Below, one piece after another: positions 11,647 to 26,945 of a stretch of 32,053 nucleotides of DNA. The position numbers and the translations under genes are program-made. The stretch comes from an uncultured Agathobacter sp. (GTDB lineage Bacteria; Bacillota; Clostridia; Lachnospirales; Lachnospiraceae): the NCBI GenBank assembly GCA_945910395.1, contig CAMDYX010000026.1, forward strand, positions 1 through 32,053. The letters are read 5' to 3'. Position 1 is the stretch's first letter; each line of letters begins with the position of its first letter. The notes below the pieces were generated by a model. It saw nothing but the letters and a program-made list of their open reading frames with translations, was not told where the DNA came from and ran no database searches.

Positions 11647-11673
11647 TAAGAATAATATTGGCAAAAAGTTTTT

Positions 11674-11719
11674 AAAAACTGTTAAGTCGAAACAAATAAT
11701 ACTCTATCTATTAGTAGAA
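11674..11719 (+). promoter_or_regulatory. Bipartite promoter-like motif before the ten-gene operon
   Basis: AAAAAC-TGTTAAGT (11674-11687), 21 nt, then TATTAGTAGAA (11709-11719). The same two blocks at the same distance occur at 25998-26043 ahead of the small-gene cluster. The spacing is too long for the usual sigma-A 17-nt spacer. The second block lies 43 nt before the first start codon. It is a candidate promoter for the sigma-like protein encoded at 12695-13585. Confidence 0.6.
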
Positions 11720-11751: not shown

Positions 11752-12054
11752 ATGAAAACAGTTGTGTATTGTAAGCCTACTGAAAAGGGTATTCATTCTT
11801 TTTATATTGTTGCTGGAACAGAGGAATTCTTCCTTTTTAACCAGGCATATAGAAGAGGCGTTGAAGAGTATTTTGGCAAAGGCGTATTGATCAATAATGC
11901 CTTGGATCATTCCAGGGCACATAAGGATTCAGCTATTTCGCGTACCATGAGCAAGATTCCTATGTATGTTCGTTATGTTGAAAAGGAATATGATGTAGCA
12001 ATCCTTGAGAAGACAAAGAAAAGTAATCACGGGTATAAGATGAGATGTGCTTAG
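11752..12054 (+). CDS. Hypothetical 100-aa protein, first gene of the operon
   Basis: A small basic protein beginning MKTVVYCKPTEKGIHSFYIV, with a strand-rich N-terminal half and a patch of conserved-looking residues (FLFNQAYRRGVEEYF, then SRTMSKIPMYVRYVEKEYDV). No catalytic motif, membrane segment or signal peptide is visible, and I do not recognise the family. AAGAGAGGTATTAT precedes the ATG. It lies 12 bp before the CARF-like gene, so it is likely a small partner or regulator of that protein. The function is unknown. Confidence 0.75.
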   Translation: MKTVVYCKPTEKGIHSFYIVAGTEEFFLFNQAYRRGVEEYFGKGVLINNALDHSRAHKDSAISRTMSKIPMYVRYVEKEYDVAILEKTKKSNHGYKMRCA

Positions 12055-12066
12055 GAGGTTTAGGAA

Positions 12067-12684
12067 ATGAAGAAGCTTGTTATTTGCAACATACCTATGA
12101 GAGAGAACATCGCTAATGTGGTGTTTAGCAGCGATGACCGTTCATTGCCGGTGTCTTCTGATGAATATCGATATCCGGTTCTTTCATTTTTATCTCAGAC
12201 TCTGAAGACTGAAGATGATGTAAAGTTCCTTCTTCTTGTAAAAAAGGATGGGAAGGAATTTTATAAAAAGAATATAGATGACTGTCTTACAGAGATCCAA
12301 AGGGCAAATGCCTCGGCAGGTGCAAAGATATCTTATACAATCATTGATACGGATTTTTCCCAGAAGAAGGAAACCCATGAGCAGTTAATGGGAAAACTGG
12401 TCGAGGAGATCGAGACGGGATCTCATATTCTGACCGACATAACATATGGTCCAAAAGATCTTCCTATAGTTATTTTTTCGGCTTTGGGCTTTGCTGAGAA
12501 GTTCCTTGAATGTGAAATAGATAATATTGTTTATGGCCAGGCTGAGTTTGTGGACAATAAGGTTGTCAGTTCAAAGATCTGCGATATGACATCTCTTTAT
12601 CTGTTAAGCTCAGTTACAAATACAATAAAATGCGACGATCCGGAGAGAGCAAAGACGATGCTGAAATCCCTTCTTTCAATGTAG
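12067..12684 (+). CDS. TM1812/CARF-like (CRISPR-associated family) protein
   Basis: A 205-residue protein matching the pattern of the TM1812 (Csx2/DxTHG) family: a Rossmann-like start (LVICNIPM), a second strand VKFLLLVKKDGKEFY, YTIIDTDFSQKKETHEQL, then the signature ILTDITYGPKDLPIVIFSAL and IDNIVYGQAEF. CARF domains of this family bind cyclic oligonucleotides in type III CRISPR systems. Here DxTHG is DITYG, there is no effector (HEPN or nuclease) domain, and no cas gene or array is near. It may sense a nucleotide signal or bind a partner protein. AGGAGG precedes the ATG. The family call is fairly sure; ligand binding is inferred. Confidence 0.8.
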   Translation: MKKLVICNIPMRENIANVVFSSDDRSLPVSSDEYRYPVLSFLSQTLKTEDDVKFLLLVKKDGKEFYKKNIDDCLTEIQRANASAGAKISYTIIDTDFSQKKETHEQLMGKLVEEIETGSHILTDITYGPKDLPIVIFSALGFAEKFLECEIDNIVYGQAEFVDNKVVSSKICDMTSLYLLSSVTNTIKCDDPERAKTMLKSLLSM

Positions 12685-12694
12685 GAGGGATCAT

Positions 12695-13585
12695 ATGCGT
12701 TATAACAAGGATGAGTGCGAAAAATTAATAGATGAATCGCCTTTATTCCACTTGGACAGGGAAACTGAACCAAGTGCATATCGCCGTGAAGTTCTTAAAA
12801 TGGTGGAATATTTGTATTCATATTTGATGGCTGTAAATGCAGGAAAGTATGAAGAATATGCCGTGGAGATCGTGGATACTGCCAAACGGTGCATAGAAAA
12901 TTATGAGCCAGATCAGGGAAGGTTTATTAATTACTTTAATTCTTCTTGGAAGCAGAGTTATGGACATATTGTTGGCAGGGAACTTGTAAAGAATACTTTT
13001 GCTGGTGTTCATTTTTCTGAGGACGATGCACGTAACTATCGTAAGTACATGAAGCTTGCTCAATCTATGGGTGCTGACATAGACAGCGATAGTTTTAAGA
13101 AAATGGTTTCTGATGCAATGGGAATATCTGTTGAAGCAGTTGAAGATCTTCAGCATATGGCAGAGAGTAAACCAGTTTCATGCACGTATGTGAACGAAGA
13201 AGGAGAGGAGTTCAGCCTGATTGATCAGCTTGATAGCGGAATTTATGTTGAATCGGCTATTACGGAGAATGACAATGCAATTGCTTTTATGGATCTAATA
13301 AAGATTGTTTTTGAGAAGCTGCAGGAAAGACAAAAACCGATGATGGCGAAATTGCTCACATCAAAGCTGGCGCTCTTAACCACAGAAAATGAAGTACTTT
13401 CGGATTATTTGCATTCAATGCCGTATTTTGATGAGGAGATATTTGTTGAGTGCATTCATATAGGGGAGAGTGTTCAGGCTAAGGAAATATCTTCCCGTTT
13501 GGGTGTAAATGAAGCAAGCACGAGCAGGTCCTGGAAGAATTTTAAAGATAAGCTCACTGAAGGGATGAAGGAAAGGAAAAATTGA
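12695..13585 (+). CDS. Sigma-factor-like protein
   Basis: A 296-residue helical protein. Residues about 55-100 (EIVDTAKRCIENYEPDQG, then RFINYFNSSWKQSYGHIVGR) resemble sigma-70 region 2, where a chain of helices grips core polymerase and melts the -10 element. The C-terminus (VQAKEISSRLGVNEASTSRS, then WKNFKDKLTE) resembles region 4 with an HTH for the -35 element. The middle is less typical. AGGAGGG precedes the ATG, and the stop overlaps the RBS of the vWA gene. It probably directs transcription of the island itself. It could also be a sigma-derived DNA-binding regulator without polymerase function. Confidence 0.7.
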   Translation: MRYNKDECEKLIDESPLFHLDRETEPSAYRREVLKMVEYLYSYLMAVNAGKYEEYAVEIVDTAKRCIENYEPDQGRFINYFNSSWKQSYGHIVGRELVKNTFAGVHFSEDDARNYRKYMKLAQSMGADIDSDSFKKMVSDAMGISVEAVEDLQHMAESKPVSCTYVNEEGEEFSLIDQLDSGIYVESAITENDNAIAFMDLIKIVFEKLQERQKPMMAKLLTSKLALLTTENEVLSDYLHSMPYFDEEIFVECIHIGESVQAKEISSRLGVNEASTSRSWKNFKDKLTEGMKERKN

Positions 13586-13586
13586 G

Positions 13587-14300
13587 ATGGGATTACGAGA
13601 CGTAGTAATTAAAGAAGCAAGGCCATTACCGGTTTTACTGTTGGTTGACAACAGCGGAAGTATGGCTAATGAAAAGATCAATACTGTAAATGTTGCTATA
13701 AAAGAAATGATCGCTGAATTTTCAGCAATTAAAAACGCAAAAGGAAAGATCAGCATTGGTGTAATTACTTTTGGAAATACTGTTGAGCTGGTGCAGACAA
13801 TAGATAAAATAGAGAATGTTAATATCCCGGAGTTTACGGCTGCTGGAAAAACCTGGATGGGCCAAGCCATAGATATGGCCGTTGATATGCTTGAAGACAG
13901 AGACCAGGTGCCAGAAAGAGCGTACACACCAACAATCATATTGTTGAGTGACGGGCTACCTTCTGATTGTCCTGGAAAAATGGATCCTCAGAATTATGAT
14001 TTTTCACAATGGGAGCCTTTACAGAGACTGCATTCTAGCGAAAGATTAAAGAAATGTCCGAAGCTAGCATTGGGAATTGGGGAAGGAACAAATTACCAAA
14101 TGTTAAATGCATTTATTAATAACCCTGAGATTCCGGTAATACGTGCAAATGATTTGGCAACTATAACAAAGTTTTTCCAATGGGTTACTTATTCAATAAG
14201 CAAACGATCGGTAAGTAGTAATCCTAATGAAGCGGTTTTGGAGGATCCGAAACAGCGGTTTGATGAAGATGAAGTTGCATATTTAATGGGATTGGTATAG
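13587..14300 (+). CDS. TerY-like von Willebrand factor A domain protein
   Basis: A 237-residue single-domain vWA protein. The metal-ion-dependent adhesion site is complete: Asp21-x-Ser23-x-Ser25 (VDNSGSM), Thr89 in AAGKTWMG and Asp122 in LLSDGLPSD. TerY proteins form the TerY-P triad together with a PP2C phosphatase and a protein kinase, exactly the two genes that follow. The vWA domain probably acts as a metal-dependent scaffold or phosphorylation target. There is no signal peptide or membrane segment, so it is cytoplasmic. The start lies one base after the sigma-like gene's stop. Confidence 0.9.
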   Translation: MGLRDVVIKEARPLPVLLLVDNSGSMANEKINTVNVAIKEMIAEFSAIKNAKGKISIGVITFGNTVELVQTIDKIENVNIPEFTAAGKTWMGQAIDMAVDMLEDRDQVPERAYTPTIILLSDGLPSDCPGKMDPQNYDFSQWEPLQRLHSSERLKKCPKLALGIGEGTNYQMLNAFINNPEIPVIRANDLATITKFFQWVTYSISKRSVSSNPNEAVLEDPKQRFDEDEVAYLMGLV

Positions 14301-14319
14301 CGAGGAAAGTACTATAGTC

Positions 14320-15081
14320 ATGGATCATATGGAAATCAAATCCGGTGAAAAAAGAATATTCATAGGTGGTGTTTCCGAAAAGGGTGTCAACAAGAAACTA
14401 AATCAGGATGCTTTTCTTATCGGATATGATAAAGACCAAGATGTTGCATATATTATAGTTGCAGATGGTCTGGGTTCATGTAAAAACTCTGCACAAGGCT
14501 CTAAACGAGTAACGGAGATAATAGAGAACTGGATAAAGAGTCAGTTGCCTAAATATGCATATTTATCGAATAATGTCGCTAATATTTTTGCAAAGCGTTT
14601 AATGGAAGAGTGGCAATCTTCATATGATATAGAGGATATTAACACATTTGATACGACGGTTCATGTGGCCATTTATTATAAGGGCAGTATAATGATTGGC
14701 GGGATTGGAGATGGAATGGAGTTGATCAACTGCGATGACCTTTATGCCAAGGATAGGATTGATCATAAAGATCTTTTCTCCAATGTTACAAATTCGATGT
14801 GTTCCATCAATGCGGAGGAACTGCTTAGTTTTGAGATAGTATCTAAGGATTCTTATAATAATATTGTAACCATAATCATTGCAACAGACGGTATAGCGGA
14901 TGATCTGATACCAGAGAAGAAAATGACATTATTACCATATTTCTATGATGTACTAACCCAACAAGGTTCTGATGCTATGCAGTCTGAGCTTAAAGAGTGG
15001 CTTAAAGACTGGGAAACAGAAAGTCATAGTGATGATAAGACAATTTGCTATCTTGTGGTGAAAGGAAAGCTACATGAATAA
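14320..15081 (+). CDS. PP2C-family protein phosphatase
   Basis: A 253-residue metal-dependent Ser/Thr phosphatase. Motifs in order: GVNKKLNQDAF (Asp30), YIIVADGLGS (Asp49-Gly50), GGIGDGMEL (Asp131), IIATDGIADD (Asp190) and SDDKTICY (Asp238-Asp239). All metal-binding aspartates expected of PP2C are present. It presumably removes phosphate placed by the adjacent kinase, perhaps on the vWA protein, the sigma-like factor or the helicase complex. The ATG at 14320 has GAGGAAAG 10 nt upstream; a second ATG at 14329 is possible. It overlaps the kinase start by 8 bp. Confidence 0.92.
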   Translation: MDHMEIKSGEKRIFIGGVSEKGVNKKLNQDAFLIGYDKDQDVAYIIVADGLGSCKNSAQGSKRVTEIIENWIKSQLPKYAYLSNNVANIFAKRLMEEWQSSYDIEDINTFDTTVHVAIYYKGSIMIGGIGDGMELINCDDLYAKDRIDHKDLFSNVTNSMCSINAEELLSFEIVSKDSYNNIVTIIIATDGIADDLIPEKKMTLLPYFYDVLTQQGSDAMQSELKEWLKDWETESHSDDKTICYLVVKGKLHE

Positions 15082-16564
15082 AGAAAAAGATTTAATTGGA
15101 CAAATTATACATGATACGGATGGCAGAGAATATCACGTGACAGCTGTTTTGAGTAAAGGCGGGCAGGGAATTGTATATAGAACTGCAGAAGAGTTCCTGA
15201 TAAAAATCAATACATCGCTGGACAAGGACAAGTATCGTGAAAGATATAAATGGCTTCAAAAAAGAGGAAGCCAGCTTCCTAAGGAAACAAGGATAGCATT
15301 TCCGATTGCTGTATTAGAAGAACCATGGGTTGGATATGTAATGATGGAGGCCAAAGGACACGTATCCTTAAATGATTATGTTGAAAAGCCTGAAGAAATA
15401 GACGATTTATGGGATTGGTATTTTAATGCTACCGGAGGCTTGTCAAAACGGTTACAGATAGGTTACCTGCTGGCTAAGAGTTTGAGATATCTGCATATTA
15501 ACGGATATGCATATGTGGACTTATCGCCAAACAATGTGTTTGTATCTAAAGAAAAGAACAGCCTGGCCATTATAGATTCGGACAATATTACATCCGGAGC
15601 ATATCGTCCGTTGATTGATGGAACAAATTATTATATGGCTCCGGAAATAGCAAATAAAACAGCGGTTGCTAGTACAGTGACCGATACCTACTCATATGCT
15701 GTATTGTTATTCAAAATGTTGACGACATGCCATCCCTTTATTGGAGATGAAGCAGAGGACGCAAATCCCGAAATTGTCCAGGAAAGCGTTGACAAAGGAA
15801 AACTTGACTACATTGGGGATCCCGTATCTTCGAGTAATAAGAATTCCAATTTTGAAAACACGAAAATATTTTTAACCGATGAGTTGGCTGAACTATTTAG
15901 AAGAACATTCGTAGAAGGAAAAAAGGAAAGCTCTAGAAGGCCAACGCTTATGGAGTTTATGAAAGCATGTATGCATGCCAGAAACAGGGTCATTCAGTGC
16001 GACCACAATGGCTGTGATGCTGAGTACTACTATACTGGCTATAAGTGTATTTGCCCGTTGTGTGATTCCCATATAAAAAAAGTTTACTTACTTCAGAGTA
16101 GAAATATGGTTAAGACACGTGGGAAAATATTGATTCCTGTCGATGGATCTCAGGATATGAAGCCATTGGATGTTTACGCAGATGATATTGGCTTTATGGC
16201 AGTAACAAAGCAGTTGAAATACATTAACAGAAGCTTCTTTGACGAGAATATACCTTTAGAGTCAGATGTATCTTTCCTGGCAGTAGGAAGAACAAAAGAG
16301 GGAAAGCTTGCAGCATATAATCTGTCGAAAAATGTAATAACCATTAACAATTCAAAGATGTCAAAAGCAAGGCCTGTAGATCCTTATAAAAAGGGAGTTA
16401 CAAAACCAGTTGTAGTTGATGATGACCCCGGAGCACATTTTTTGTTTCTTGAAAAAAATATTGATGTAACAACGGAATGTGAATTCATTGATACAAAACA
16501 GATTGAGAAATTTTACGGTTCAGCCGAAATCAGTAAGTTTATTACGATCAAACAGGAGGGGTAG
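15074..16564 (+). CDS. Ser/Thr protein kinase with zinc ribbon (TerY-P kinase)
   Basis: A 496-residue protein. The kinase domain (about 18-300) shows a glycine loop LSKGGQGIVYR (26-36), Lys44 in FLIKIN, the catalytic loop VDLSPNNV (Asp149, Asn154; the usual HRD is YVD) and IIDSDN in place of DFG (Asp168). A zinc ribbon follows, with Cys309, Cys314, Cys327 and Cys330. The rest (about 340-496) is a strand-rich domain I do not recognise. A kinase with a zinc ribbon after vWA and PP2C genes is the TerY-P arrangement. No membrane segment is present, so it senses something inside the cell. Confidence 0.92.
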   Translation: MNKEKDLIGQIIHDTDGREYHVTAVLSKGGQGIVYRTAEEFLIKINTSLDKDKYRERYKWLQKRGSQLPKETRIAFPIAVLEEPWVGYVMMEAKGHVSLNDYVEKPEEIDDLWDWYFNATGGLSKRLQIGYLLAKSLRYLHINGYAYVDLSPNNVFVSKEKNSLAIIDSDNITSGAYRPLIDGTNYYMAPEIANKTAVASTVTDTYSYAVLLFKMLTTCHPFIGDEAEDANPEIVQESVDKGKLDYIGDPVSSSNKNSNFENTKIFLTDELAELFRRTFVEGKKESSRRPTLMEFMKACMHARNRVIQCDHNGCDAEYYYTGYKCICPLCDSHIKKVYLLQSRNMVKTRGKILIPVDGSQDMKPLDVYADDIGFMAVTKQLKYINRSFFDENIPLESDVSFLAVGRTKEGKLAAYNLSKNVITINNSKMSKARPVDPYKKGVTKPVVVDDDPGAHFLFLEKNIDVTTECEFIDTKQIEKFYGSAEISKFITIKQEG

Positions 16565-16567
16565 TTC

Positions 16568-19500
16568 TTGAACAGCAAAAAAATAAAATTTGCAAATGAA
16601 TATTGCTTTATTGCCATACTGGATGATGCTGATCAGCTGGTTCAAAATGGAGTAGTGGATTATCAGATTCTTCAGAATGATCTGCTTATACGAACTATGA
16701 ACAATGAGTTCGCAAGAGTATCAATTAATTCTGAAGAGGATGCATCTATTTCCGAATTACGTTCGTCGTATGGAAGATCCTTGCTTAGAGCAGATAAAGT
16801 GGATGGAAATTATATTTCTTTTACACTTATGAAGTTTTCTGATTCAGTACATTATGATCAAGACAACCCGCTTAGAATTGTTGTAGATCAGGCGATCTCA
16901 GCAGACTTAAGAAAATATAATATTGAACCAGAAAAAGCTGTTGACGAAGTGAGAAGACAGTTGCTCGTTAATGAGGTTGGACTTTATTGTTTTGGCTATT
17001 CCAGAGGTGATATTTCCGGAGACTTGGAGCTAATAGGAGATAGATTCTCTTTTACAATTTCTGAGACACCTCAGCATTATCTCCATATTACACAAATGCT
17101 GAGCAGGTCGAACAGAAATAGAATAGATGCCCCGATTGTTCTTATTGAAGGAACAGTGGAAATTGTTAATGAGCTGACTGATAGAGCAATTCTTACGTCT
17201 CGTGCAAACGAGCAGTACTCCAAAATGGTGAGTTCCGACACGGAGTTTATTCAATTATGGAATATCTATAATGAACTTGAGATGGAAAGCATTAAGCAGG
17301 AAGCAACAGAGATGGGCTTTCTGAAGTATAAAAGTTTTCATTACTCAAATGGAATGGTGATTTTTAACCTGAGTGGGGGGTATACAAGAAGAGAGTTCTG
17401 CGTTGACAACATGTATTATGTTGCAATTGCAAGTATTGATATAGCAAATCCGATGGATTACAACTACAGGTCAGCCACCATAGTTGGAAGTGAGATTGAT
17501 TATAGTTGTATCAACACCACTGAATTTCGGATTAAAGAGGATATGGATACCACAAGATCGATACCGGCGCATGGATATTTGCTTCCAAGTGTATCAGGAT
17601 CGGCTGTGCAGAAAAAAAGAAGAGAACAGGCTCAGAAAAATATTATTTCAAATAAATGCGTACTTCCGGGATTGAAGAATATTATCCAGGGTGGAGCTCA
17701 GGTAGGTGTTAGTGGAAGAAGGTTTCAACCAATATCTGCTAATCTGGAAAAGAACATATTTGAAAGCGGAGACACTCATTTTACTGAGAAACAGAAGCAG
17801 GCATTAGATGTGGCAATAAATACTCCAGATATTGCCATTATTCAGGGACCTCCTGGAACCGGTAAAACTACTGTAATAAAAGCAATTGTTAAACGCATTG
17901 ATGAGATTTGGAATAGCAGGGCAAAGATTCTGATCACATCAACACAGCATGATGCTGTTGATAATGCTGTTGAAGAAATTGATTATGGCGGTGTTCCTGT
18001 TAATAGAGTCTCCGTCAGAAGAGGCAAGGAGAGTGAGAATCTTATTATCTATGATTGGATAGATAAAATGATTTTTTCCTGTGAAGAGTGGCTGAATGCA
18101 AATGACGGAAACGAACGGAGTAAAGTCAGGGAACTGTTTGAAAAGCTACTTAAGGTAGAAAATTCTTCAGACTTTTCGGAACAGTTTACTGCATTAGATG
18201 ATTGCAAGGATATCATCAAAACATTAGGACTGAGTCCGGAAGCAAATAGTAAATATGCAATGGTGCTGGCTGAACTTGATGCAAAGAGAAAGACCGGTCA
18301 GGAACTAACGGATTCAAACCAGTTGTCAGCGTTGCTTAGAGGGCAAAGACTAAGCAAGGAAGCATACCTTGATGATGGAATTGCTCAGCTTAAACAACTA
18401 GAACAATATCTTAAATATGACAGCGACCTGGAGTTTGAGATTCCGGATTATTGGAAAAAGCTTCGAAGAATAAGCGAAGAGTGTCCTGAATTGGAAGGGT
18501 ATTTAACACAGCTTGCAAAGGACTGTGAAACTCTAGAAAGCTTATCGCCGGAAACAGTTTCTGTAAATGACGAGCTCTTACAGAAAGATATTACGGATTT
18601 GATTAAGGCTATAAGGCTTGAAGTAGTATCTCGTGGAAATGATAAGAAAACAATTGTAGCTAACCTTATATGGGAGTTTAAGCAGGAGCTTACAAACAGT
18701 AATAACGTTGATGCAATTATAAAAGCATATTCCAAGATCAATGCAGCGACCTGTCAGCAGGCGGCCAATCCACATTTGAGTGCCTCAATGAGCGGCTTTG
18801 ATGAAGAGTATGATTATGTAATTGTAGATGAAGCAGCCAGATCGAATCCTTTGGACCTGCTTATTCCAATGTCCATGGGTAAGAAGATAATTCTGGTTGG
18901 AGATCATAAGCAGTTGCCGCACATGGTAGAACGGGACATTGTCCAGGCAGTAGCGGCAAAAACAGAGTCCAAGAATATTGAGCAAGTGCTTGAGGAATCG
19001 TTGTTTATGCGATTGAACTCGGCAGTAGCTACAGAAGATAAGAAGCTTGGAATCAAACGTACGGCCATGTTGACAGAACAATACAGAATGCATCCGGATA
19101 TCTGTGATCTTGTTAATGTTTTTTATGATGGAAATCTACAGACACTTTGTAAGAGAGAAGATAAAGAGCATCGATTAGGGATGTATGGCGATAAGGCCTT
19201 AGCATGGATTGATATGCCTATATCAGATCAGTGTCCTGCAGAAGTCAGAAACCAAAGTGTAAGCAGACCGTGTGAAGTTGAACGTATTCAAAAAGAACTT
19301 GCAATGGTTCTGGCAAAGAATAGTGACTATAAGATAGGAATTATAACATTTTATAGTGCACAGGCCAAACTGCTGAATGATATGGTACAGGACAGATTTC
19401 CTGGCGATGTCCATCGAATCAGAGTAGGAACTGTTGATGCTTTTCAGGGAAAAGAGTTCGATGTGGTTTTTCTTTCGGTAGTACGAGCAAATCGAGAGGA

Positions 19501-19672
19501 AGATATGCGGAAGAGGGTTGGATTCCTTAATAATGATAATCGTCTTTGCGTTGCTTTCAGTCGAGCAAAAAGACTTTTGATCGCAGTTGGTGATGCTTCT
19601 ACAGTCGCTTTTGATGGAGAAAAGGAATATGTCAGAGCTCTTCATCAAATGTATTTGAAATGCGGGAATTAA
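16568..19672 (+). CDS. Large SF1 (Upf1/Dna2-like) helicase
   Basis: A 1034-residue protein with a TTG start at 16568, supported by AGGAGGGG 6 nt upstream and only 3 bp after the kinase stop. An N-terminal region of about 400 residues is strand-rich and unassigned. The helicase core has motif I GPPGTGKTT (427-435), motif Ia TSTQHDAVDNA, motif II IVDEAARSNP (Asp754, Glu755), motif III LVGDHKQLPHMV, motif IV QYRMHP (838-843), motif V VDAFQGKE (956-963) and motif VI CVAFSRAKR. A helical insertion of about 240 residues lies between Ia and II. It should unwind or translocate on DNA or RNA. Confidence 0.93.
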   Translation: MNSKKIKFANEYCFIAILDDADQLVQNGVVDYQILQNDLLIRTMNNEFARVSINSEEDASISELRSSYGRSLLRADKVDGNYISFTLMKFSDSVHYDQDNPLRIVVDQAISADLRKYNIEPEKAVDEVRRQLLVNEVGLYCFGYSRGDISGDLELIGDRFSFTISETPQHYLHITQMLSRSNRNRIDAPIVLIEGTVEIVNELTDRAILTSRANEQYSKMVSSDTEFIQLWNIYNELEMESIKQEATEMGFLKYKSFHYSNGMVIFNLSGGYTRREFCVDNMYYVAIASIDIANPMDYNYRSATIVGSEIDYSCINTTEFRIKEDMDTTRSIPAHGYLLPSVSGSAVQKKRREQAQKNIISNKCVLPGLKNIIQGGAQVGVSGRRFQPISANLEKNIFESGDTHFTEKQKQALDVAINTPDIAIIQGPPGTGKTTVIKAIVKRIDEIWNSRAKILITSTQHDAVDNAVEEIDYGGVPVNRVSVRRGKESENLIIYDWIDKMIFSCEEWLNANDGNERSKVRELFEKLLKVENSSDFSEQFTALDDCKDIIKTLGLSPEANSKYAMVLAELDAKRKTGQELTDSNQLSALLRGQRLSKEAYLDDGIAQLKQLEQYLKYDSDLEFEIPDYWKKLRRISEECPELEGYLTQLAKDCETLESLSPETVSVNDELLQKDITDLIKAIRLEVVSRGNDKKTIVANLIWEFKQELTNSNNVDAIIKAYSKINAATCQQAANPHLSASMSGFDEEYDYVIVDEAARSNPLDLLIPMSMGKKIILVGDHKQLPHMVERDIVQAVAAKTESKNIEQVLEESLFMRLNSAVATEDKKLGIKRTAMLTEQYRMHPDICDLVNVFYDGNLQTLCKREDKEHRLGMYGDKALAWIDMPISDQCPAEVRNQSVSRPCEVERIQKELAMVLAKNSDYKIGIITFYSAQAKLLNDMVQDRFPGDVHRIRVGTVDAFQGKEFDVVFLSVVRANREEDMRKRVGFLNNDNRLCVAFSRAKRLLIAVGDASTVAFDGEKEYVRALHQMYLKCGN

Positions 19673-19687
19673 GGAGGACGGTAATAA

Positions 19688-21316
19688 ATGGTCAAAACAT
19701 ATGATTTTGGCACAAACACAAAAACGGTGAGTGCTAATGAAAGAAAACCGATTGCCTGGCCGATTGCTGTCTGGTCTTGTTATATTCCGGAAAGCGAAGT
19801 ACAGGACATTAATATTCTGGAACATTTGATTTTGCAGCTTATTGATAAAGGATATTCCACACCAAAGGATATTCTCTGCATCCAGGTTGGCTTTAACAAA
19901 GACCTTGTTGATGCTGCAATTGAAGCCTGTGATGATAAGGGGTATTTTGATAAGCGATTTAAGGAATTAAAACTATCTTCGGATGGAAAAAGTATTCTTG
20001 GGAAATATGATAATCCGTATACTTCAGACTTAGAAGCCTCCAAGAACGCAAGAAAAATATATATGTTTCAGGATTTGGTTACCAAAAACGTAATTCCCGT
20101 ATTTGATATCAGTCGTTTGCCGGATTTCTACTATGACGATGAAGCGATACAAGTGTCATATGATGGTATTGATGGGAAAAAGCCAAAGAGCGCATCTATA
20201 AGAATGGCATTGAGATACTGGGCAAGACTTTGCAGTAATAGAAACAGAGGATTGCTGACAGGCGATAATAGCATTGATATATCAGAGCCTCCTGCAGAGG
20301 ATAATATAAACGATGAAGCTCTCTTTTTTGAAGATGAGGTTGAGTGGGAAAGCATTCAGGATGATGGAAGCGTTAAAGTAAAAACGTTGGCTGATAAGGA
20401 AGAAGCGGATCAACGTGAAAAGACAGAAAACCTGATTTCCAACATAACAATTTTGGATGATTCACCGGAAATATATTATGCCAGGGGTTATATTGCGATA
20501 AACAGAAATGCTCCAGAGGAGGTGTTAATTTTATCGCCGTTTGGAGAACGGCTCGATGACTGGTATAGAACTCTTGTAAACAGACTAAGAGTAAGTGATC
20601 AGGATTTTGAAGATGAAATACAGTTCTTCCTTGAGGAAAAGAAAGAAGAATTAAAGAATACGATTGCTTTTGGAAATGATTTGGATATAGCGTTATTTAA
20701 CGAATTTCCATTTATATGTAATGACAATGGGTACAAAGCAGTAAAGAAAACGATTACTCGTCTGACGATATGTAAAAACAGAATTGTCGCTGGTGAAGAT
20801 GAAAGTATCAATTTTGCTCAGGCTATTCGGACGGCTTATGAGGCAAGTATACGCTTGGTTGTAAAAAAGAATGCGTATCTGTTAGAACTGAATGAAATTG
20901 ACTACGAAGAATACAAGCAGGATCTGAATATGCTGGTAAACTCTTACAGCTTTTTAAACCGTGATATTTATCGTGAGTACTGCGGACACCGAATATATAC
21001 CAATATGACGGAAGCTACGGGAGATAAAGGATACGCAACTGCATATATGGCATTGCTACTACTGGACGCGTGGAAAGATAAAAATGGTAAGTCAATGGAT
21101 TTGTTAAGAAATATTCCATCAATACCAATCAGGTTTAAGGAATTAACTTCTTCGTTACGAACGGAAAACCAAAAAAATGGAGCTGGCACAATAGCTTCCC
21201 ATGGTGGTGATGAGATTGCCGACTTAAAAGTTTCTGTCAAACAAGCTACTACACAATATGAGGAATTTGAGAACTTGTTTAGGGCAATATATAACCGATT
21301 TATGGAGGATATATAA
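19688..21316 (+). CDS. Unrecognised 542-aa protein, possible winged helix at N-terminus
   Basis: I do not recognise this family. Residues about 42-88 (LEHLILQLIDKGYSTPKDIL, then FNKDLVDAAIEACDDKGYFD) look like a winged helix as found in DNA-binding adaptor proteins. A very acidic low-complexity stretch follows at about 195-245, then a mixed domain with GYIAINRNAPEEVLILSPFG. The C-terminal part (about 375-500) is helical with regular hydrophobic spacing. No enzymatic motif is visible. AAGGAGGACGG precedes the ATG. It sits between helicase and ATPase, and the next gene starts directly after its stop, so it is probably a stoichiometric partner linking the two. Confidence 0.82.
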   Translation: MVKTYDFGTNTKTVSANERKPIAWPIAVWSCYIPESEVQDINILEHLILQLIDKGYSTPKDILCIQVGFNKDLVDAAIEACDDKGYFDKRFKELKLSSDGKSILGKYDNPYTSDLEASKNARKIYMFQDLVTKNVIPVFDISRLPDFYYDDEAIQVSYDGIDGKKPKSASIRMALRYWARLCSNRNRGLLTGDNSIDISEPPAEDNINDEALFFEDEVEWESIQDDGSVKVKTLADKEEADQREKTENLISNITILDDSPEIYYARGYIAINRNAPEEVLILSPFGERLDDWYRTLVNRLRVSDQDFEDEIQFFLEEKKEELKNTIAFGNDLDIALFNEFPFICNDNGYKAVKKTITRLTICKNRIVAGEDESINFAQAIRTAYEASIRLVVKKNAYLLELNEIDYEEYKQDLNMLVNSYSFLNRDIYREYCGHRIYTNMTEATGDKGYATAYMALLLLDAWKDKNGKSMDLLRNIPSIPIRFKELTSSLRTENQKNGAGTIASHGGDEIADLKVSVKQATTQYEEFENLFRAIYNRFMEDI

Positions 21317-23653
21317 GTGAGTAGAAAAAGTAATAAACCACCTTACAATGGTAAGAACGATAGCCAGAAATCCAAGAATGAAAGAGTAAATGAGCTGATG
21401 AAGGAGCAGAAAGATAAAATTGACGCTGCTCTTATTACGGATGAGCGCGTAGCGGCTAAAATAGCAGAGCTTGAAGAAAAGAAAAGTGCGCTGGACCAGG
21501 AGTATGAAGATAAGAAAAAAGAGCTTGAGGATTCTATTGCTGAACAGCAATTAGCTTTAGATCTCCGGTCTGAAAATCTGGACAAGCAAAAAGAGGCGCA
21601 GGATAAAAAGGAAAAGGAGCTGGCTGATACGGAAGAAAAGACGAGAAAACTTTGTGAGTCAGCTGTGCAGGAAGAAGTTCAGAAGATACGTGATAATGAA
21701 CGGTCGATAAGAGAGAAGGAGAAAGAGGCTGTATATTCAGAATGGGAAACTGATAAGGCAAAGCAGAAAAAAGAATTAGAAGAATATATTGCCGCTCAGA
21801 GAAAAGAAATAGATTCTGAACTGGAAAGGGCACATAAGGACCGATCAGACGCTGAGACGCAGAAGTTAGAAAAAATACATTCTGCAGATAAGGAGATTGA
21901 AGATAAAAGGGCTGAATTAACGGATGAATATGTAAAAAAGGTAGATGATTTATCCGCCAAGAAAAAGGAATATGAACATAAACTTCTTGAATTAGAAGAA
22001 GACAAGGCAGACCTTGCTGAAGATAAAGAATACGTTGCCAAATTAAAGGAAAAGTACAGCAAGTATTCTGAAGAAGAGGTTTTACGCCTTGAAAGCGAGA
22101 TTGAGCATTATAAAACTCAGATAGGTTTTTATAATAAGCGTATAGGGGAACTTGATGAGAAAACTGCGCGAATGGAAAGCTTGTTACTTGATAATGAAGG
22201 GCAGTCATTGATGGCGCGCATTAGCGAACTTGAGATGCAGTTGGAGGAAGCGCTTAAGCGGAATGATGAGCTGGTCAATATGCCTTCTGAGGAGGAAATT
22301 GAGCGATTGCGTGCCAATGCAAAGGAACTTGAAGAGCTCAGGATAGAACTTGATGAACAAAAGAGGAAACGTGCTGAGGCAGAGGCTAAAATAAGTGCAT
22401 ATGCTATGAGTGCAAGAGAACTTGAAAATGCCAGAGTTTCTGCAGCTGCACTGGAATCTTTGAATAATCAGTTACAAATGAAACTGAAATATATCAGTGA
22501 ACAGTATAAAACAACTCAGGAAAGTAAGTTTAAGGTACTTCTTGATATAGATAAGGAATTAGAAGAGCAGCCTTTGCGTAGTCCTAAGGGGTATTCTGGA
22601 ACGCTTAAAGAGTTATGTGAGTATGTACGTAATTTCGGAGCATATCATAAGAAGCTATATTATTCTATAGATACGATTAGAGTATTTTTCGCATCATTGG
22701 CAGCTTCCGAAAAAGCATCACGTCTTCTGATCTTACAAGGACTGAGTGGAACGGGAAAATCCAGCTTGCCACGACTGGTGGCAGAATCACTTGGTGCAGA
22801 ATGCAAATTGGTGCCGGTACAGCCTTCGTGGAGAGATAATAGAGAACTACTTGGATATGATAATGATTTTACAAATAGGTTCAAGGAGACAGAATTTACT
22901 AAATATTTGTATGAAGCATCGGCGGCATCTAACAGGCAGAGAGTATTTTTGATTGTTCTGGATGAAATGAATCTGGCGAGAATAGAATATTATTTTGCCG
23001 ATTTCCTGTCTGTATTGGAGAAGCCGGATAAAGAGAACTGGATTGTTCCGTTGGTATCCGGATACTCTGAGCTGGATGAGGATCAGAAACCTAAGTACCT
23101 TAATTATTCGAACGAAGCAGCCAATATCTGTGTTACAAACAATATTTGGTTTGTTGGAACCGCAAATAATGACGATTCCACTTCTCTTATTACAGACAAG
23201 GTCTATGACAGAGCTCAGGTTTTAGACATGGATGAGAGAGAAGATGAGTTTACTGGTAAGAGAGTAGCAAAAGTAGACATGACTCTTGAAGATCTGCTGA
23301 CCTTATTTGAAGAGGCAAAAACTGCTGGCAATATGTTAAAGGAAGTAGACAGGGAAAATATCCGTATGGTTGATGAATATCTCAAAGACATGGAGATTAC
23401 ATTCGGAAACCGTATCATGAATCAGATGGATGATTTCGTTCCTGTATATGTTGCTTGTGGCGGAACCAAGAATGAAGCAATTGATTATTTGTTGACACAT
23501 AAGATTTTAAGGAAACTTGATGAACGTTATGAGCCTTACCTGATAGCCAAGTTAACCGAACTGGAAAAAGGCTTGAATGAAATTTATGGTGATGGCGTAT
23601 TTGAACAGAGCATCAAGAAAATACACAAATTAAAAGAGAGAATCTCAGGGTGA
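21317..23653 (+). CDS. Coiled-coil McrB-like AAA+ ATPase
   Basis: A 778-residue protein from a GTG at 21317 that immediately follows the previous stop; ATGGAGGAT is the RBS. Residues about 20-430 are an almost continuous coiled coil rich in E, K and A. The AAA+ domain follows: Walker A GLSGTGKSS (475-483), Walker B FLIVLDEMNLARIEYYFADF (Asp549, Glu550) and sensor 1 VGTANNDDST, the pattern of the McrB/MoxR-like group. McrB-type motors form hexamers that drive a nuclease partner, usually encoded next. The long coil in front replaces McrB's DNA-binding domain and may act as a spacer or sensor. Confidence 0.9.
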   Translation: MSRKSNKPPYNGKNDSQKSKNERVNELMKEQKDKIDAALITDERVAAKIAELEEKKSALDQEYEDKKKELEDSIAEQQLALDLRSENLDKQKEAQDKKEKELADTEEKTRKLCESAVQEEVQKIRDNERSIREKEKEAVYSEWETDKAKQKKELEEYIAAQRKEIDSELERAHKDRSDAETQKLEKIHSADKEIEDKRAELTDEYVKKVDDLSAKKKEYEHKLLELEEDKADLAEDKEYVAKLKEKYSKYSEEEVLRLESEIEHYKTQIGFYNKRIGELDEKTARMESLLLDNEGQSLMARISELEMQLEEALKRNDELVNMPSEEEIERLRANAKELEELRIELDEQKRKRAEAEAKISAYAMSARELENARVSAAALESLNNQLQMKLKYISEQYKTTQESKFKVLLDIDKELEEQPLRSPKGYSGTLKELCEYVRNFGAYHKKLYYSIDTIRVFFASLAASEKASRLLILQGLSGTGKSSLPRLVAESLGAECKLVPVQPSWRDNRELLGYDNDFTNRFKETEFTKYLYEASAASNRQRVFLIVLDEMNLARIEYYFADFLSVLEKPDKENWIVPLVSGYSELDEDQKPKYLNYSNEAANICVTNNIWFVGTANNDDSTSLITDKVYDRAQVLDMDEREDEFTGKRVAKVDMTLEDLLTLFEEAKTAGNMLKEVDRENIRMVDEYLKDMEITFGNRIMNQMDDFVPVYVACGGTKNEAIDYLLTHKILRKLDERYEPYLIAKLTELEKGLNEIYGDGVFEQSIKKIHKLKERISG

Positions 23654-23657
23654 TAAT

Positions 23658-25937
23658 ATGAGGATTTTTCTTGTTAATTCAGCCGGGAAGACAGAACTCC
23701 CGGCTGAAAACGGCAAACACAGCCTGACTTTGTACAACAATTATATTCTTCTTGAAGCCGATGCACAGTCTGATGTCAGGGTTGAGACCATATATGATGA
23801 CTACATAGTTGTAAAAGAAGGGGTGGCTACTGTTCCTATCAGATGGGATAAAGAGGAGAAAAGTGCCGTCACAATAAGATGTGGTGGAAAAACAGTAAAA
23901 TATCAATTCCAGCTGGAATGTGTATCACCTATATCCGACGAGGATATTGACAATCTTCTGAGGTTCTTTTCACAAATAGAGGACAATTTCAGATATGATA
24001 AGGACTACTCTGTAAATGATCTGTTCGAAGCAATAAGGTCAGATAGGGTTGCACTTATTATTGAAAAAAGGCCATACAGTGGCTATGACGATCAATCTCT
24101 TCTTCGGCAAATTCAAGAGACTGTTCCTATGGTTATGGATATATGCTCGCATCCTAAACAAAGCCTTAGAACGGAAGAAGCAATTTTGGATGTTAATCTT
24201 GTGAAACGTGTTAATACCAGAACGATGGATCATTTAGCTTCTCATTCTGAGCATTGGAAAGCAAGAACCCTGAATGGGCTGATTCCTAATCGATTACGAG
24301 CGGATATATTTGAGGATGAAATCAACATATATGAGAACTTGTTTTTTCGGATGGCGGTTGATGATATCTTAAAATACATTCATAGACAAGCTGTTAGCAT
24401 AGAAAAGACTGTCGAACAAAATGATAATGCCATAGACTGGAATGCATATGGTGAAGAATTATACGATTATAAAAGAATGCGTTTTTTCGCTCAACTGCTT
24501 CCGGATTATAATATTGCAGAACGACAAACAGTAAATACCACTCTCAGATCCTTACTTGAACAATGGAGTCACCTAGAGAGAAATTATTCTACTGTCGAGG
24601 CCTCACAATTCTATCATAGTATAGATAAGAAAAAGCATATCAGTCGTAACATCAGACCTACCAATATTCTTAAAAAGGATTCGAGATATAATGCTTTATA
24701 TCGTCTCTGGTGCGAAATACAAAGACAGGTCGTTCAAGAACATGATGATTCAATGGACGTATTTGGCGAAAGTGGTTTTGTTCTGAATAATTGTTATTCG
24801 TTATATGTTACAGTACTCTTGCTATACGTATTCAAACTGTTGGATTGTCAAACAAGGTCTGACTCAAAATTTAAGATAACCGTTGATGGAATAATATTGG
24901 TAGAAGCCTTTTTTATCTCGGACAGCATGAATTATTCCGTGAAGACGTCTGTTAACGAATATGGGGCCATAGATATTGTGCTTACTTTTATTGAGAAAGT
25001 AAGATATGAATACATACTTCCGACAGATGTGTCATCATATTCTGAGGAAATAAAAAGAAAAATTCCGCACCAGGCTGAACTGAAGGATGGAAAAATAGTG
25101 TTTTATGCTAAGCCATCAGATGCTGAGCAAAGAGAATTAAAAAACCTATTTCATTTGAGTAATTCAGCAAAGAAGGGAATGAATGAAGCGGAAAAACGAT
25201 CCAAAGATGAATTGGATAAGATATGGAGGACACAGCTTGAGGAGCTGTTTTCATCAGGGAAGATCAGGAATTCCAGGACAGCATCTTTAAGAATTAATCC
25301 GCAATATGCAATGATGGATAATTCAGAAGTAGATGTTGAAAGGTTTACGGAGACAGTACTTGATAGTGTGAAGGATTCTGTAATATTTACTTTTCCATAT
25401 GATATCAGTAATTATAGGAAGACGATCCATGCAGATCAACTTTTATATCGATTGCTGAATTATGGAGAAAAGTATCAGGAAAATGATGCTAGGCGTTGGG
25501 GAAATTATAGAGTTGGTATATTGCCTATTGCCCAATCAGAGATTAATTCTGCTCAGCGCTTAATGAAACTAATATCCTTAAATGCATCCCGGCTACAGAT
25601 TCAGTGGACAGGAGATAAGGCAGTTTGCCCTGTGTGCGGAAGCAGAGACTGTTCAAAGGAAGGGACAAACAGTTGGAAGTGCAAAAACTCAGAGTGTGGT
25701 GTGATTTTCGGAATTACAAAACATGCTGAGGGCTGCGGTGAGAACTATGAGTGGACCAGGCCACAAATAGATGTCAAAATTAAAGACCTTGATCTGGATG
25801 ATACTATGGGGCTGATGTTAAAGAAGGAAATGGTTTTTGATCGTTTGGCTATTACCGATTTTGAATTAGAAAAGCAACATGATGGCCAAATCAGATATAT
25901 TCCGGTTTGCCCAAGATGTGGTAAGCGAAGAAACTGA
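23658..25937 (+). CDS. DUF2357/McrC-like partner with C-terminal zinc ribbons
   Basis: A 759-residue protein directly after the McrB-like gene. Its centre has the DUF2357-type pattern NIRPTNILKKDSRYNALYRL (about residues 330-350), and a beta-rich N-terminus precedes it. The C-terminus carries zinc-binding motifs: CPVC at 657-660 with CKNSEC further on, and CPRCGK at 751-756. DUF2357 proteins usually pair with McrB-like ATPases and many have a PD-(D/E)xK nuclease domain. I cannot find clear PD...ExK residues here, so nuclease activity is not supported by what I see. It is the last gene of the operon, with a terminator 20 bp downstream. Confidence 0.8.
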   Translation: MRIFLVNSAGKTELPAENGKHSLTLYNNYILLEADAQSDVRVETIYDDYIVVKEGVATVPIRWDKEEKSAVTIRCGGKTVKYQFQLECVSPISDEDIDNLLRFFSQIEDNFRYDKDYSVNDLFEAIRSDRVALIIEKRPYSGYDDQSLLRQIQETVPMVMDICSHPKQSLRTEEAILDVNLVKRVNTRTMDHLASHSEHWKARTLNGLIPNRLRADIFEDEINIYENLFFRMAVDDILKYIHRQAVSIEKTVEQNDNAIDWNAYGEELYDYKRMRFFAQLLPDYNIAERQTVNTTLRSLLEQWSHLERNYSTVEASQFYHSIDKKKHISRNIRPTNILKKDSRYNALYRLWCEIQRQVVQEHDDSMDVFGESGFVLNNCYSLYVTVLLLYVFKLLDCQTRSDSKFKITVDGIILVEAFFISDSMNYSVKTSVNEYGAIDIVLTFIEKVRYEYILPTDVSSYSEEIKRKIPHQAELKDGKIVFYAKPSDAEQRELKNLFHLSNSAKKGMNEAEKRSKDELDKIWRTQLEELFSSGKIRNSRTASLRINPQYAMMDNSEVDVERFTETVLDSVKDSVIFTFPYDISNYRKTIHADQLLYRLLNYGEKYQENDARRWGNYRVGILPIAQSEINSAQRLMKLISLNASRLQIQWTGDKAVCPVCGSRDCSKEGTNSWKCKNSECGVIFGITKHAEGCGENYEWTRPQIDVKIKDLDLDDTMGLMLKKEMVFDRLAITDFELEKQHDGQIRYIPVCPRCGKRRN

Positions 25938-25957
25938 TAGGAATTATGTTGAATGCT

Positions 25958-25987
25958 AAAAAAGGCTTGTTAATTCAAGCCTTTTTT
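25958..25987 (+). terminator. Perfect terminator at the end of the ten-gene operon
   Basis: AAAAAAGGCTTG pairs exactly with CAAGCCTTTTTT around TTAATT. The T-run follows a short GC core, and the A-rich 5' arm makes it work in both directions. It closes the island operon. Confidence 0.92.
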
Positions 25988-25997
25988 AATTATGAGA

Positions 25998-26043
25998 AAA
26001 AAGTGTTAAGTGGCGTGACTCACATCCCTATGTATAAGTAGGA
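25998..26043 (+). promoter_or_regulatory. Second copy of the bipartite promoter-like motif
   Basis: AAAAAG-TGTTAAGT (25998-26011), 21 nt, then TATAAGTAGGA (26033-26043), the same blocks at the same spacing as 11674-11719. The first block matches at 13 of 14 positions and the second at 9 of 11, while the spacers are unrelated. The second block lies 39 nt before the start of the first small gene. It suggests this cluster and the operon are transcribed by the same factor. Confidence 0.6.
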
Positions 26044-26071: not shown

Positions 26072-26221
26072 ATGAAAATTAAGGTAAAGCCTACAACGAA
26101 TGGAAAACCTAAGAAGGGCAATAGTGCTCCTAAATGCAGAAGTTGCGGATGCCCTTGTTGGAGAAGCGATGTTCTTTATTGTTGGGATTGCTACAAATAT
26201 CAGTATTTCGAGTCAAGATAG
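26072..26221 (+). CDS. 49-aa zinc-ribbon protein
   Basis: A short basic protein starting MKIKVKPTTNGKPKKG. Two cysteine pairs, CRSCGCPCW and CWDC about 12 residues later, look like a single zinc ribbon. GGAGGG precedes the ATG by 10 nt, and the stop codon overlaps the RBS of the next gene. Being only a zinc ribbon with a basic tail, it may bind nucleic acid or a protein. It is the first gene behind the shared promoter motif. I do not recognise a named family. Confidence 0.72.
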   Translation: MKIKVKPTTNGKPKKGNSAPKCRSCGCPCWRSDVLYCWDCYKYQYFESR

Positions 26222-26230
26222 GAGGTGCCT

Positions 26231-26449
26231 ATGAGAAGAAATGGTTATGGCAGAGGATATTATGGACGCGGTTGTGGTTCCAACGATGGATTGTATGGGC
26301 TCCTAGCTATTTTTCTTCTGGCGATTTTTGCCATGCCGCTGGTAGGCGGCTATCTTCTGATCACCGGTAAGGATGAGGGATCAAAATTCTTGGGAGGTGC
26401 GTTGCTTGTTGTTGGAATTATTGTTTGGATCATGATGGGTATGAGCTAA
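26231..26449 (+). CDS. Small two-segment membrane protein
   Basis: A 72-residue protein: a Gly/Tyr/Arg-rich start (RRNGYGRGYYGRGCGSNDG), then two hydrophobic segments at about residues 21-42 and 51-70 with the loop TGKDEGSKFLG. I use the ATG at 26231 because AGGAGG lies 5 nt upstream; a GTG two codons earlier falls within the RBS. It is a membrane-embedded protein of unknown function, and its Gly/Arg-rich cytoplasmic end could contact nucleic acid or a partner. Confidence 0.72.
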   Translation: MRRNGYGRGYYGRGCGSNDGLYGLLAIFLLAIFAMPLVGGYLLITGKDEGSKFLGGALLVVGIIVWIMMGMS

Positions 26450-26462
26450 GGAGGGCGTGCGG

Positions 26463-26906
26463 ATGAAAAATAATGATGGATTAAAAGTCCTTGCAGGAGT
26501 GCTTCTTGTCCTGGGTATTCTGATAATTATCGGATCTGCTTCTTCAAAAAACGATTATCGGAACACCTGCATAGAATCCGGATGTGATAATGATAGGGCA
26601 TATGGAAGCAGCTATTGCTACATTCATAATCCGTATACCAGCACAGGAACTACATCTTCATACCGCTCTGGCAGTAATACATCTTCTACAGGTAAAACCG
26701 GATCCTCTTCCAGTCAAAGTAGTACAACAAATAGTCATAGTAGCTATTCATCGCACAGTAGTCATTCATCAGGCTACTCTACGACATACAATACTTTGAT
26801 GAATGATCCAGCTGATTATGATGATCCTGAAGAATATGCTGATGATGCCTGGGGCGAAGACTTTGAGGATTGGGACGATGCATATGATTATTGGGAAGAT
26901 TATTGA
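26463..26906 (+). CDS. Membrane-anchored Ser-rich protein with acidic tail
   Basis: A 147-residue protein. A single hydrophobic segment (about residues 7-24, LKVLAGVLLVLGILIIIG) anchors it. Cysteines in NTCIESGCDNDRAYGSSYCY with a following HNP look like a small metal site. About 50 residues are almost only Ser, Thr, Tyr, His and Gly (S-S-H-S runs), and the last 35 are very acidic with repeated D-D/E-Y and W. I choose the ATG at 26463 because AAGGAGG is 8 nt upstream; the GTG at 26457 is too close. This could be a surface or membrane-exposed sensor. The family is not recognised. Confidence 0.72.
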   Translation: MKNNDGLKVLAGVLLVLGILIIIGSASSKNDYRNTCIESGCDNDRAYGSSYCYIHNPYTSTGTTSSYRSGSNTSSTGKTGSSSSQSSTTNSHSSYSSHSSHSSGYSTTYNTLMNDPADYDDPEEYADDAWGEDFEDWDDAYDYWEDY

Positions 26907-26945
26907 TGACAACGTATAATTAGCAATGGTACAGAAAGGAAAGGT

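Follow-up and report, generated by a model that had tools for sequence, protein, structure and literature searches.

CoCoNuTs have been described as predicted RNA-targeting restriction systems, and a Type II CoCoNuT combined with TerY-P is a published kind (Bell et al., 2024; PMC11090510). In the sections of that article that deal with the individual proteins, CnuH carries an SmpB-like OB fold and an RNase-toxin-like domain at its N-terminus, CnuE a winged helix-turn-helix (wHTH) and one HEPN domain with an RxxxxH motif, and CnuC combines DUF2357 and a zinc ribbon with an inactivated PD-(D/E)xK fold. A different arrangement is set out in the relevant sections of PMC11417357, where CalpL, CalpT, and CalpS, a SAVED-Lon protease with an anti-sigma and a sigma factor, stand beside type III CRISPR. 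Much about how bacteria silence costly defence operons and later activate them is an open question. The present study concerns a ten-gene operon on contig CAMDYX010000026.1 of an uncultured Agathobacter sp., and all coordinates are positions of the whole 32,053-nucleotide (nt) stretch that was analysed, referred to as the window. By profile and motif matches, and in one case by position, seven of the ten genes correspond to a Type II CoCoNuT with TerY-P, a predicted defence operon. What appears to be new is the operon front, which consists of a control cassette (g1, a stand-alone CARF protein, and a sigma-70-family factor) and a promoter-like element. A literature search, which did not extend to the main CARF classification, found no description of CARF and sigma-70-type genes standing as a pair ahead of CoCoNuT or TerY-P genes.

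The cassette at the operon front

The cassette genes and the two copies of the element are as follows:

11680 to 11717, + strand: element P1, TGTTAAG - 17 nt - CTATCTATTAGTAG, 34 nt before the g1 start codon; perfect match, held-out matrix score 27.7
11752 to 12054, + strand: g1, a cassette protein of 100 amino acids (aa) with 39 relatives
12067 to 12684, + strand: stand-alone CARF protein, 205 aa, predicted ligand sensor; PADLOC CARF2--CARF 2.6e-74
12695 to 13585, + strand: sigma-70-family factor, 296 aa; TIGR02937 1.3e-4 and a fold model
26004 to 26041, + strand: element P2, the second copy, 30 nt ahead of the start codon that opens a second gene set; perfect match, top-ranked site of the window with a held-out score of 30.9

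An earlier note on this DNA had called the second product CARF-like, and the PADLOC CARF2 match bears this out, covering residues 1-204 of the 205; a match to TIGR02221 lies below the cut-off of that family. The string DITYG.KD is invariant among 26 aligned CARF rows, the motif form of the CARF superfamily being D-x-T-[HY]-G. Relatives fall into 517 clusters in sequence collections, while an alignment search of a viral contig collection returned none, and at E <= 1e-30 only the window's own genome matched among 391 class and 398 phylum genomes.

The same note had proposed a sigma-like factor, for which the sub-threshold TIGR02937 match is now backed by a fold model. The AlphaFold model, built with 32 relatives, has a mean predicted local distance difference test score of 77.7 and a predicted template modelling score of 0.41, and a Foldseek search gave 14 PDB matches with E <= 0.001, taken as sigma chains from their titles and chain letters, with sigma-B (chain label RPSB) and sigma-32 among them. 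On this model, the product of the third gene is predicted to have a sigma fold. Its relatives form 96 clusters in the sequence collections; a single-sequence search of a genome contig collection, an alignment search of the viral contig collection, and a search of plasmids found no relatives, and in further genome sets of 190 and 187 only the centre genome matched.

Recurrence was assessed over ten loci, namely the window and nine further readable ones, with L002, L008, and L041 being one place and counted once (L and G numbers denote loci and genomes). G368 was left out since it holds a sigma fragment at a contig end only, and its 6.6 kb contain no element. Among family genomes, 55 of the 59 that matched the sigma factor were dropped, their matches having E values of 2e-7 to 1e-3 and lying inside other frames; these are probably housekeeping sigmas. 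In all nine further loci the CARF and sigma genes are adjacent, CARF first, with gaps of 10-18 nt, and Lachnospiraceae bacterium C10 (L003 with L076) has all ten genes in the same order, which is how the neighbourhood check suggested by the earlier note came out. The hosts are Lachnospiraceae C10 and AC2012, Flavonifractor, Hornefia, Bacteroidales- and Clostridia-labelled metagenome-assembled genomes, a faecal scaffold, G118, and a Treponema plasmid, whose CARF-sigma pair is only 35% and 22% identical. Across the sequence collections, 28 of the 96 sigma clusters had a longest contig equal in length to that of one of 120 listed CARF clusters (of the 517); a jittered control for this coincidence gave a mean of 0.83 and a maximum of 5 in 2000. 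This links the two genes independently of the loci.

The genes downstream of the cassette are a Type II CoCoNuT in C10 (L003) and L038, a Type III-A-like CoCoNuT with an FtsK-type ATPase in AC2012 (L041), the TerY-P triad alone in Flavonifractor (L004), vWA and PP2C genes up to the contig end in L006, an MkoA-like helicase and one further gene in L007, and genes with a conjugation-type ATPase in G118 (L040). On the Treponema saccharophilum plasmid pTS2 (L039, 15001-24069), the CARF-sigma pair is followed by two opposite genes and then by a MoxR-type ATPase and a vWA protein. The label Type III-A-like for AC2012 and G349 refers to the FtsK-type ATPase insert and to gene sizes compared with the text of PMC11090510, and the second vWA gene given there was not detected. 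The cassette of AC2012 is as close to that of the window as the C10 cassette is (66/66/58% against 60/66/57% identity for g1, CARF, and sigma), but six comparable downstream genes are 24-35% identical in AC2012 and 61-87% in C10, so the cassette moves independently. The three genes g1, CARF, and sigma are a cassette of fixed order that is separable from the genes it precedes. The earlier note had regarded all ten genes as one system: the recurring order in C10 stands on its side, but seven of the genes correspond to a CoCoNuT and the front is a separable unit that is also found ahead of other gene sets.

The first gene of the cassette is the least constant. Its frame is intact in five of the nine further loci and broken by a stop in L038, whose record is unverified; in L004, L040, and L039, tblastn gave no g1 match, while the CARF-sigma pair persists. 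As four of the ten loci thus have either a broken g1 or none that was found, the gene is best regarded as accessory. It had no Pfam match above cut-off, and its PDB matches were at chance level (best E 0.19).

Two of the loci merit separate mention. The 3.9-kb contig of L006, binned as Bacteroidales, carries the cassette and is possibly mis-binned or recently transferred. L038 (MT835511.1) is an unverified 'Bacteriophage sp.' record that reads as a bacterial defence island: in it, cassette and CoCoNuT come after BREX genes (BrxP, BrxC, PglZ, BrxL) and a DndA/SspA-like gene, neighbours that fit a defence role.

A promoter-like element at the cassette loci

A bipartite element, TGTTAAG - 17 nt - CTATNTAnnnGTAG, is present at nine of the ten cassette loci, that is, at all but the divergent Treponema one. 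Its two copies in the window (11680-11717 and 26004-26041) were absent from the earlier note, as was the second gene set past the terminator; P2 sits 16 nt past the operon terminator. With a matrix trained on other loci, the known site ranked first in six of seven cases, and that of the window was second only to the new site at 26004. On the untouched loci L038 and L040 a site ranked first in each, and a whole-locus hold-out placed a site first in all nine loci given, with scores of 22.7-35.3. Controls peaked at 11.6 over 322,658 positions of control loci and at 17.5 over 3.75 million positions of dinucleotide shuffles. The control set comprised 30 loci (26 weak-sigma loci, three cassette-free CoCoNuT loci, and the Treponema locus); L077-L080, which had been selected by the pattern itself, were left out, and with them the control peaks at 20.9.

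Among 14 sites with 17-nt spacing, pairwise identity reached 0.89 for the -35 box and 0.65 for the -10 box, against 0.34 for the spacer and 0.37 for the flanks, with three weaker sites included (two from L038, one from L040) and the 18-nt site of AC2012 left out. Using one site per locus (eight sites) the values were 0.87, 0.32, and 0.70 for -35 box, spacer, and -10 box, respectively. Conserved boxes at a fixed distance with a diverged spacer between them resemble a -35/-10 promoter, and 14 of the 15 sites end 21-37 nt upstream of a start codon.

Across the assembly, which comprises 127 contigs and 3.14 Mb at 89% completeness, the fixed pattern matched perfectly at just two places, both in the window; the C10 genome likewise had two perfect matches, one ahead of the cassette and one immediately past CnuC. 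In both species, the element thus also heads a gene set just behind the operon. The element is absent from the cassette-free CoCoNuTs of G349, whose gene set is that of AC2012, and of G067, the best scores being 10.7 and 10.1. In G118, one site follows the sigma gene, ahead of the next genes, and a second precedes another gene; a by-eye candidate for a housekeeping promoter ahead of that cassette was absent from the scan on that strand and is not claimed. The viral contig collection gave no match to the pattern, and a variant pattern occurred in four contigs, none with cassette genes. A search for a leader riboswitch gave far sub-threshold Rfam matches only.

Further copies were seen at two places. 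Upstream of the cassette at L007:6056-8056, a second copy lies 22 nt before a radical-SAM gene, which is followed by a DnaQ-like exonuclease-type gene, and at L038:31706-32200, past the CoCoNuT, two weaker copies lie 25 and 26 nt before frames of 58 and 109 aa.

The CoCoNuT core, the second gene set, and the mobile setting

Ten open reading frames on the + strand occupy 11752-25937, with successive spacings of 12, 10, 1, and 19 base pairs (bp), an overlap of 8 bp, and then 3, 15, 0, and 4 bp. The earlier note was right in its coordinates for these head-to-tail genes (separated by 0-19 bp, save for one overlap of 8 bp), and its single terminator was recovered as a stem. The features behind the cassette are:

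13587 to 14300, + strand: TerY-like vWA protein; PF13519 2.7e-12, DNSGS at residue 21
14320 to 15081, + strand: PP2C phosphatase; PF13672 3.8e-29
15074 to 16564, + strand: Ser/Thr kinase with a C-terminal zinc ribbon; PF00069 1.5e-16, CDHNGC at residue 309, ribbon CDHNGC...CPLC
16568 to 19672, + strand: CnuH-like UPF1-family superfamily 1 (SF1) helicase with a large insert after Walker A; AAA_11 over residues 405-787, AAA_12 2.3e-42
19688 to 21316, + strand: CnuE-like protein, so named by position; weak N-terminal wHTH match (PF24409 2.9e-4, below cut-off)
21317 to 23653, + strand: CnuB-like coiled-coil McrB homologue with an NxD motif; PDC-M26A 7e-44, AAA_5 0.0018 (below cut-off)
23658 to 25937, + strand: CnuC-like DUF2357 protein with a zinc ribbon; PF09823 4.5e-8 (33.1 bits, cut-off 23.3), CPVCG at residue 657 and more Cys
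25957 to 25988, + strand: operon terminator; stem of 13 bp with -16.4 kcal/mol and z -5.28, not listed by a consensus terminator scan

Pfam, NCBIfam, and PADLOC profile matches support the motif calls made before (vWA, PP2C, kinase with zinc ribbon, SF1 helicase, and McrB-like AAA+, with AAA_5 below cut-off), and the residues that had been named, Asp149, Asp549/Glu550, and Glu755, are correct. The vWA, PP2C, and kinase-zinc ribbon genes lie side by side and so form a TerY-P triad. In the helicase, AAA_11 spans 383 residues for 253 profile positions, and the IGHMBP2-like match reaches 2.6e-52. The CnuB-like protein has Rad50/SMC-type profile matches within residues 119-413, by which its long coiled coil is predicted, and its NxD motif with the following acidic residue reads NND-D in the window and L003 and NQD-E in L038 and L041 (four loci aligned). 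Because the triad, the UPF1-like helicase, the coiled-coil McrB with NxD, and the DUF2357/zinc-ribbon protein fit a Type II CoCoNuT, the core is taken to be of a known kind. For the CnuE-like protein, a PDB sequence search gave no match and a HEPN domain was not confirmed; its RxxxxH candidate, REYCGH at residue 429 in the window, aligns to REYQGY in L003, where the motif is unconserved, and CnuE of L038 and L041 was likewise assigned by position only. A phosphorylation switch and a defence role of the operon are predicted, here as in the literature.

Behind P2 follows the second gene set:

26072 to 26221, + strand: Cys-rich protein of 49 aa, no Pfam match
26231 to 26449, + strand: hydrophobic, by eye membrane-like protein of 72 aa, no Pfam match
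26463 to 26906, + strand: protein of 147 aa with an N-terminal hydrophobic stretch, a Cys/His cluster, and an acidic tail; relative in C10
26946 to 27203, + strand: acidic protein of 85 aa with an EF-hand-like loop (PF13202 E 0.03, below cut-off), a candidate member of the set

The 147-aa protein is 53% identical over 148 columns to a protein behind the second site in the C10 genome (L003). It is possible that the small genes at 26072-27203, none of which has a Pfam family above cut-off, are extra effectors.

The operon is cargo of a mobile element, as the earlier note had it: genes for a relaxase, a Tn916-type integrase, ParA, ParB, and RepA_N surround it. Two RepA_N/DUF6017 replication-initiator-like genes of the same mobile element flank the cargo at 10183-11133 and 29292-30152.

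Proposed control and comparison with known systems

Judging from gene order and the positions of the element, the sigma factor probably transcribes the operon, its own gene, and the second set from a dedicated promoter, and the CARF protein is predicted to license it on an infection-made nucleotide signal. The CARF protein would bind this signal and thereby enable the sigma factor to read the TGTTAAG-type promoter at P1 and P2, which would drive the sigma gene itself, the downstream defence operon, and the set behind the terminator. A positive feedback loop would in this way raise expression from a low basal level to its full extent, and the products would act against phages. The likely gate is the CARF protein, since it alone among the partners accompanies the sigma gene at every one of the ten loci and itself lacks an effector domain. 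The gating, the ligand, the anti-phage effect, and the reading of the element by this particular sigma factor are what I infer from sequence comparison.

Ligand makers were looked for in seven cassette genomes, a set that leaves aside the genomes of L006, L038, and L039. A CD-NTase (SMODS) was above cut-off in two of the seven (G000 and G304), so a ligand made by a cyclic oligonucleotide-based antiphage signalling system is possible in some genomes and not common to all, and none of the ligand makers looked for is common to the seven. Cyclic-phosphate RNA ends, which the sections of PMC11090510 on RtcR-type CARFs propose as their ligand, would fit, as they could stem from the operon's own predicted RNase action.

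A bolder version of this proposal, which I consider plausible but somewhat short of probable, is that the cassette is a plug-in module in which a bare CARF protein acts as the direct gate of a dedicated sigma-70-family factor, without a protease or anti-sigma relay. Operons with a TGTTAAG-17-CTATNTA promoter (CoCoNuTs, TerY-P, helicase systems, and small membrane-protein sets) would then be under one infection-triggered, self-amplifying regulon. If the control proposed above is right, nucleotide-sensing CARF, private sigma, and promoter would be a transferable control part placed before unrelated defence genes that gives positive feedback on infection, and the cassette would offer a compact ligand-controlled promoter system. 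The element would also name target genes, among them genes too small for annotation to pick up, for example those of the second set.

A number of observations weigh against the proposed control by this sigma factor. The element was discovered by aligning seven cassette-upstream regions and the fixed pattern was written afterwards; with three mismatches allowed, its matches are at control level and were not counted. The AC2012 site has an 18-nt spacer and is missed by the fixed pattern, the site of L004, where g1 is lost, lies 246 nt before the first intact gene, and the Treponema pair has no such element, so that any promoter of that pair would be a different one. None was found ahead of the cassette in G118, so self-activation is not universal. 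The TIGR02937 match of the sigma factor reaches 21.6 bits against a cut-off of 42.9, and its whole model superposes poorly on solved sigmas (template modelling score about 0.3, root-mean-square deviation about 26), with the good fit limited to residues 1-180 (on sigma-A, 9e84_F, 4.8 A over 163 residues). The cassette is rare (three clear matches and one fragment among 397 family genomes), has no gene clearly attached in L005, and is surrounded by non-CoCoNuT genes in L004, L005, L040, and L039. Csm1 and Cmr2 were above cut-off in none of the seven genomes, and weak sub-threshold matches to the Csm1 profile occurred in four.

The competing explanation that survives best, albeit an unlikely one, is an ordinary Type II CoCoNuT superoperon in which the CARF and sigma-like genes are ancillary and housekeeping promoters drive expression. 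The CoCoNuT core is published and CARF companions are frequent according to the sections of PMC11090510 on them, and the upstream region has six sigma-A-like consensus sites on both strands, against 2.4 +/- 1.5 in shuffles, two of which, at 11671-11700, overlap P1. However, the boxes of P1 and P2 themselves are not among the listed consensus sites, the same cassette also stands ahead of non-CoCoNuT genes, and two cassette-free CoCoNuTs are without the element.

Less likely again is a three-part switch in which g1 would be an anti-sigma factor acted on by the CARF protein, as CalpT is by CalpL. The conservation of g1 and its first place in the cassette would suit such a role, and other defence sigmas have inhibitors according to the relevant sections of PMC11417357 and PMC10028731, but the ten genes include no protease family, and the CARF-sigma pair stays in place where g1 has a stop (L038, the unverified record) or no tblastn match (L004, L040, L039).

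I would place lower still the explanation that the element is an operator or activator site of another DNA-binding protein and is not read by the cassette sigma. An excisionase-like helix-turn-helix (HTH) frame, recognised by eye, does lie upstream in L002 and L003. Against this, the 17-nt spacing (18 once), the diverged spacer, and the constant distance to the start codon resemble a -35/-10 promoter, CARF and sigma are the only genes common to the loci, and with the CARF match taking up the whole 205-aa protein there is no space left in it for an HTH. Finally, a chance assembly is barely credible and was rejected: the operon travels as cargo with genes for integrase, relaxase, and partition, and mobile-element cargo is often mixed, but the CARF-sigma pair recurs in all nine further readable loci and the ten-gene order is repeated in Lachnospiraceae C10.

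Set beside known systems, the window shares with Mokosh (PADLOC MkoA/MkoB) a helicase that matches MkoA at 3.2e-110 and a kinase that matches its front part at 2.3e-8. Mokosh type I was set aside, as kinase and helicase are separate genes here and not one protein, the MkoB match is 0.0065, and vWA, PP2C, and a McrBC-like pair are present. The CalpL/CalpT/CalpS system, as described in PMC11417357, has in common with the proposed control a nucleotide-sensing protein tied to a sigma factor in defence. The window differs in that its sensor has a CARF domain and none of the ten genes belongs to a protease family, and Cas10 families were above cut-off in none of the seven genomes, so control of that type was rejected. 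For Csx30 and CASP-sigma of type III-E CRISPR, the corresponding sections of PMC10028731 report sigma motifs inside the system's own defence locus, read there as positive autoregulation, which is the likeness to the window; the inhibitor in that case is cut by a crRNA-guided protease, and the sigma factor is a different one. With RtcR (CARF-AAA+-HTH, a sigma-54 co-activator), the cassette would share CARF sensing tied to downstream transcription, but RtcR-type control was rejected since the 205-aa CARF protein has neither AAA+ nor HTH, and a dedicated sigma factor takes the place of sigma-54. The closest relative is the Type II CoCoNuT with TerY-P, with which the window shares the vWA, PP2C, and kinase-zinc ribbon genes, CnuH, the position of CnuE, CnuB with its NxD motif and coiled coil, and CnuC with DUF2357 and zinc ribbon; whereas published CARF companions of these systems are mostly RtcR-like (CARF-ATPase-HTH, with sigma-54), the operon described here has a bare CARF protein together with its own sigma-70-family factor and promoter element.

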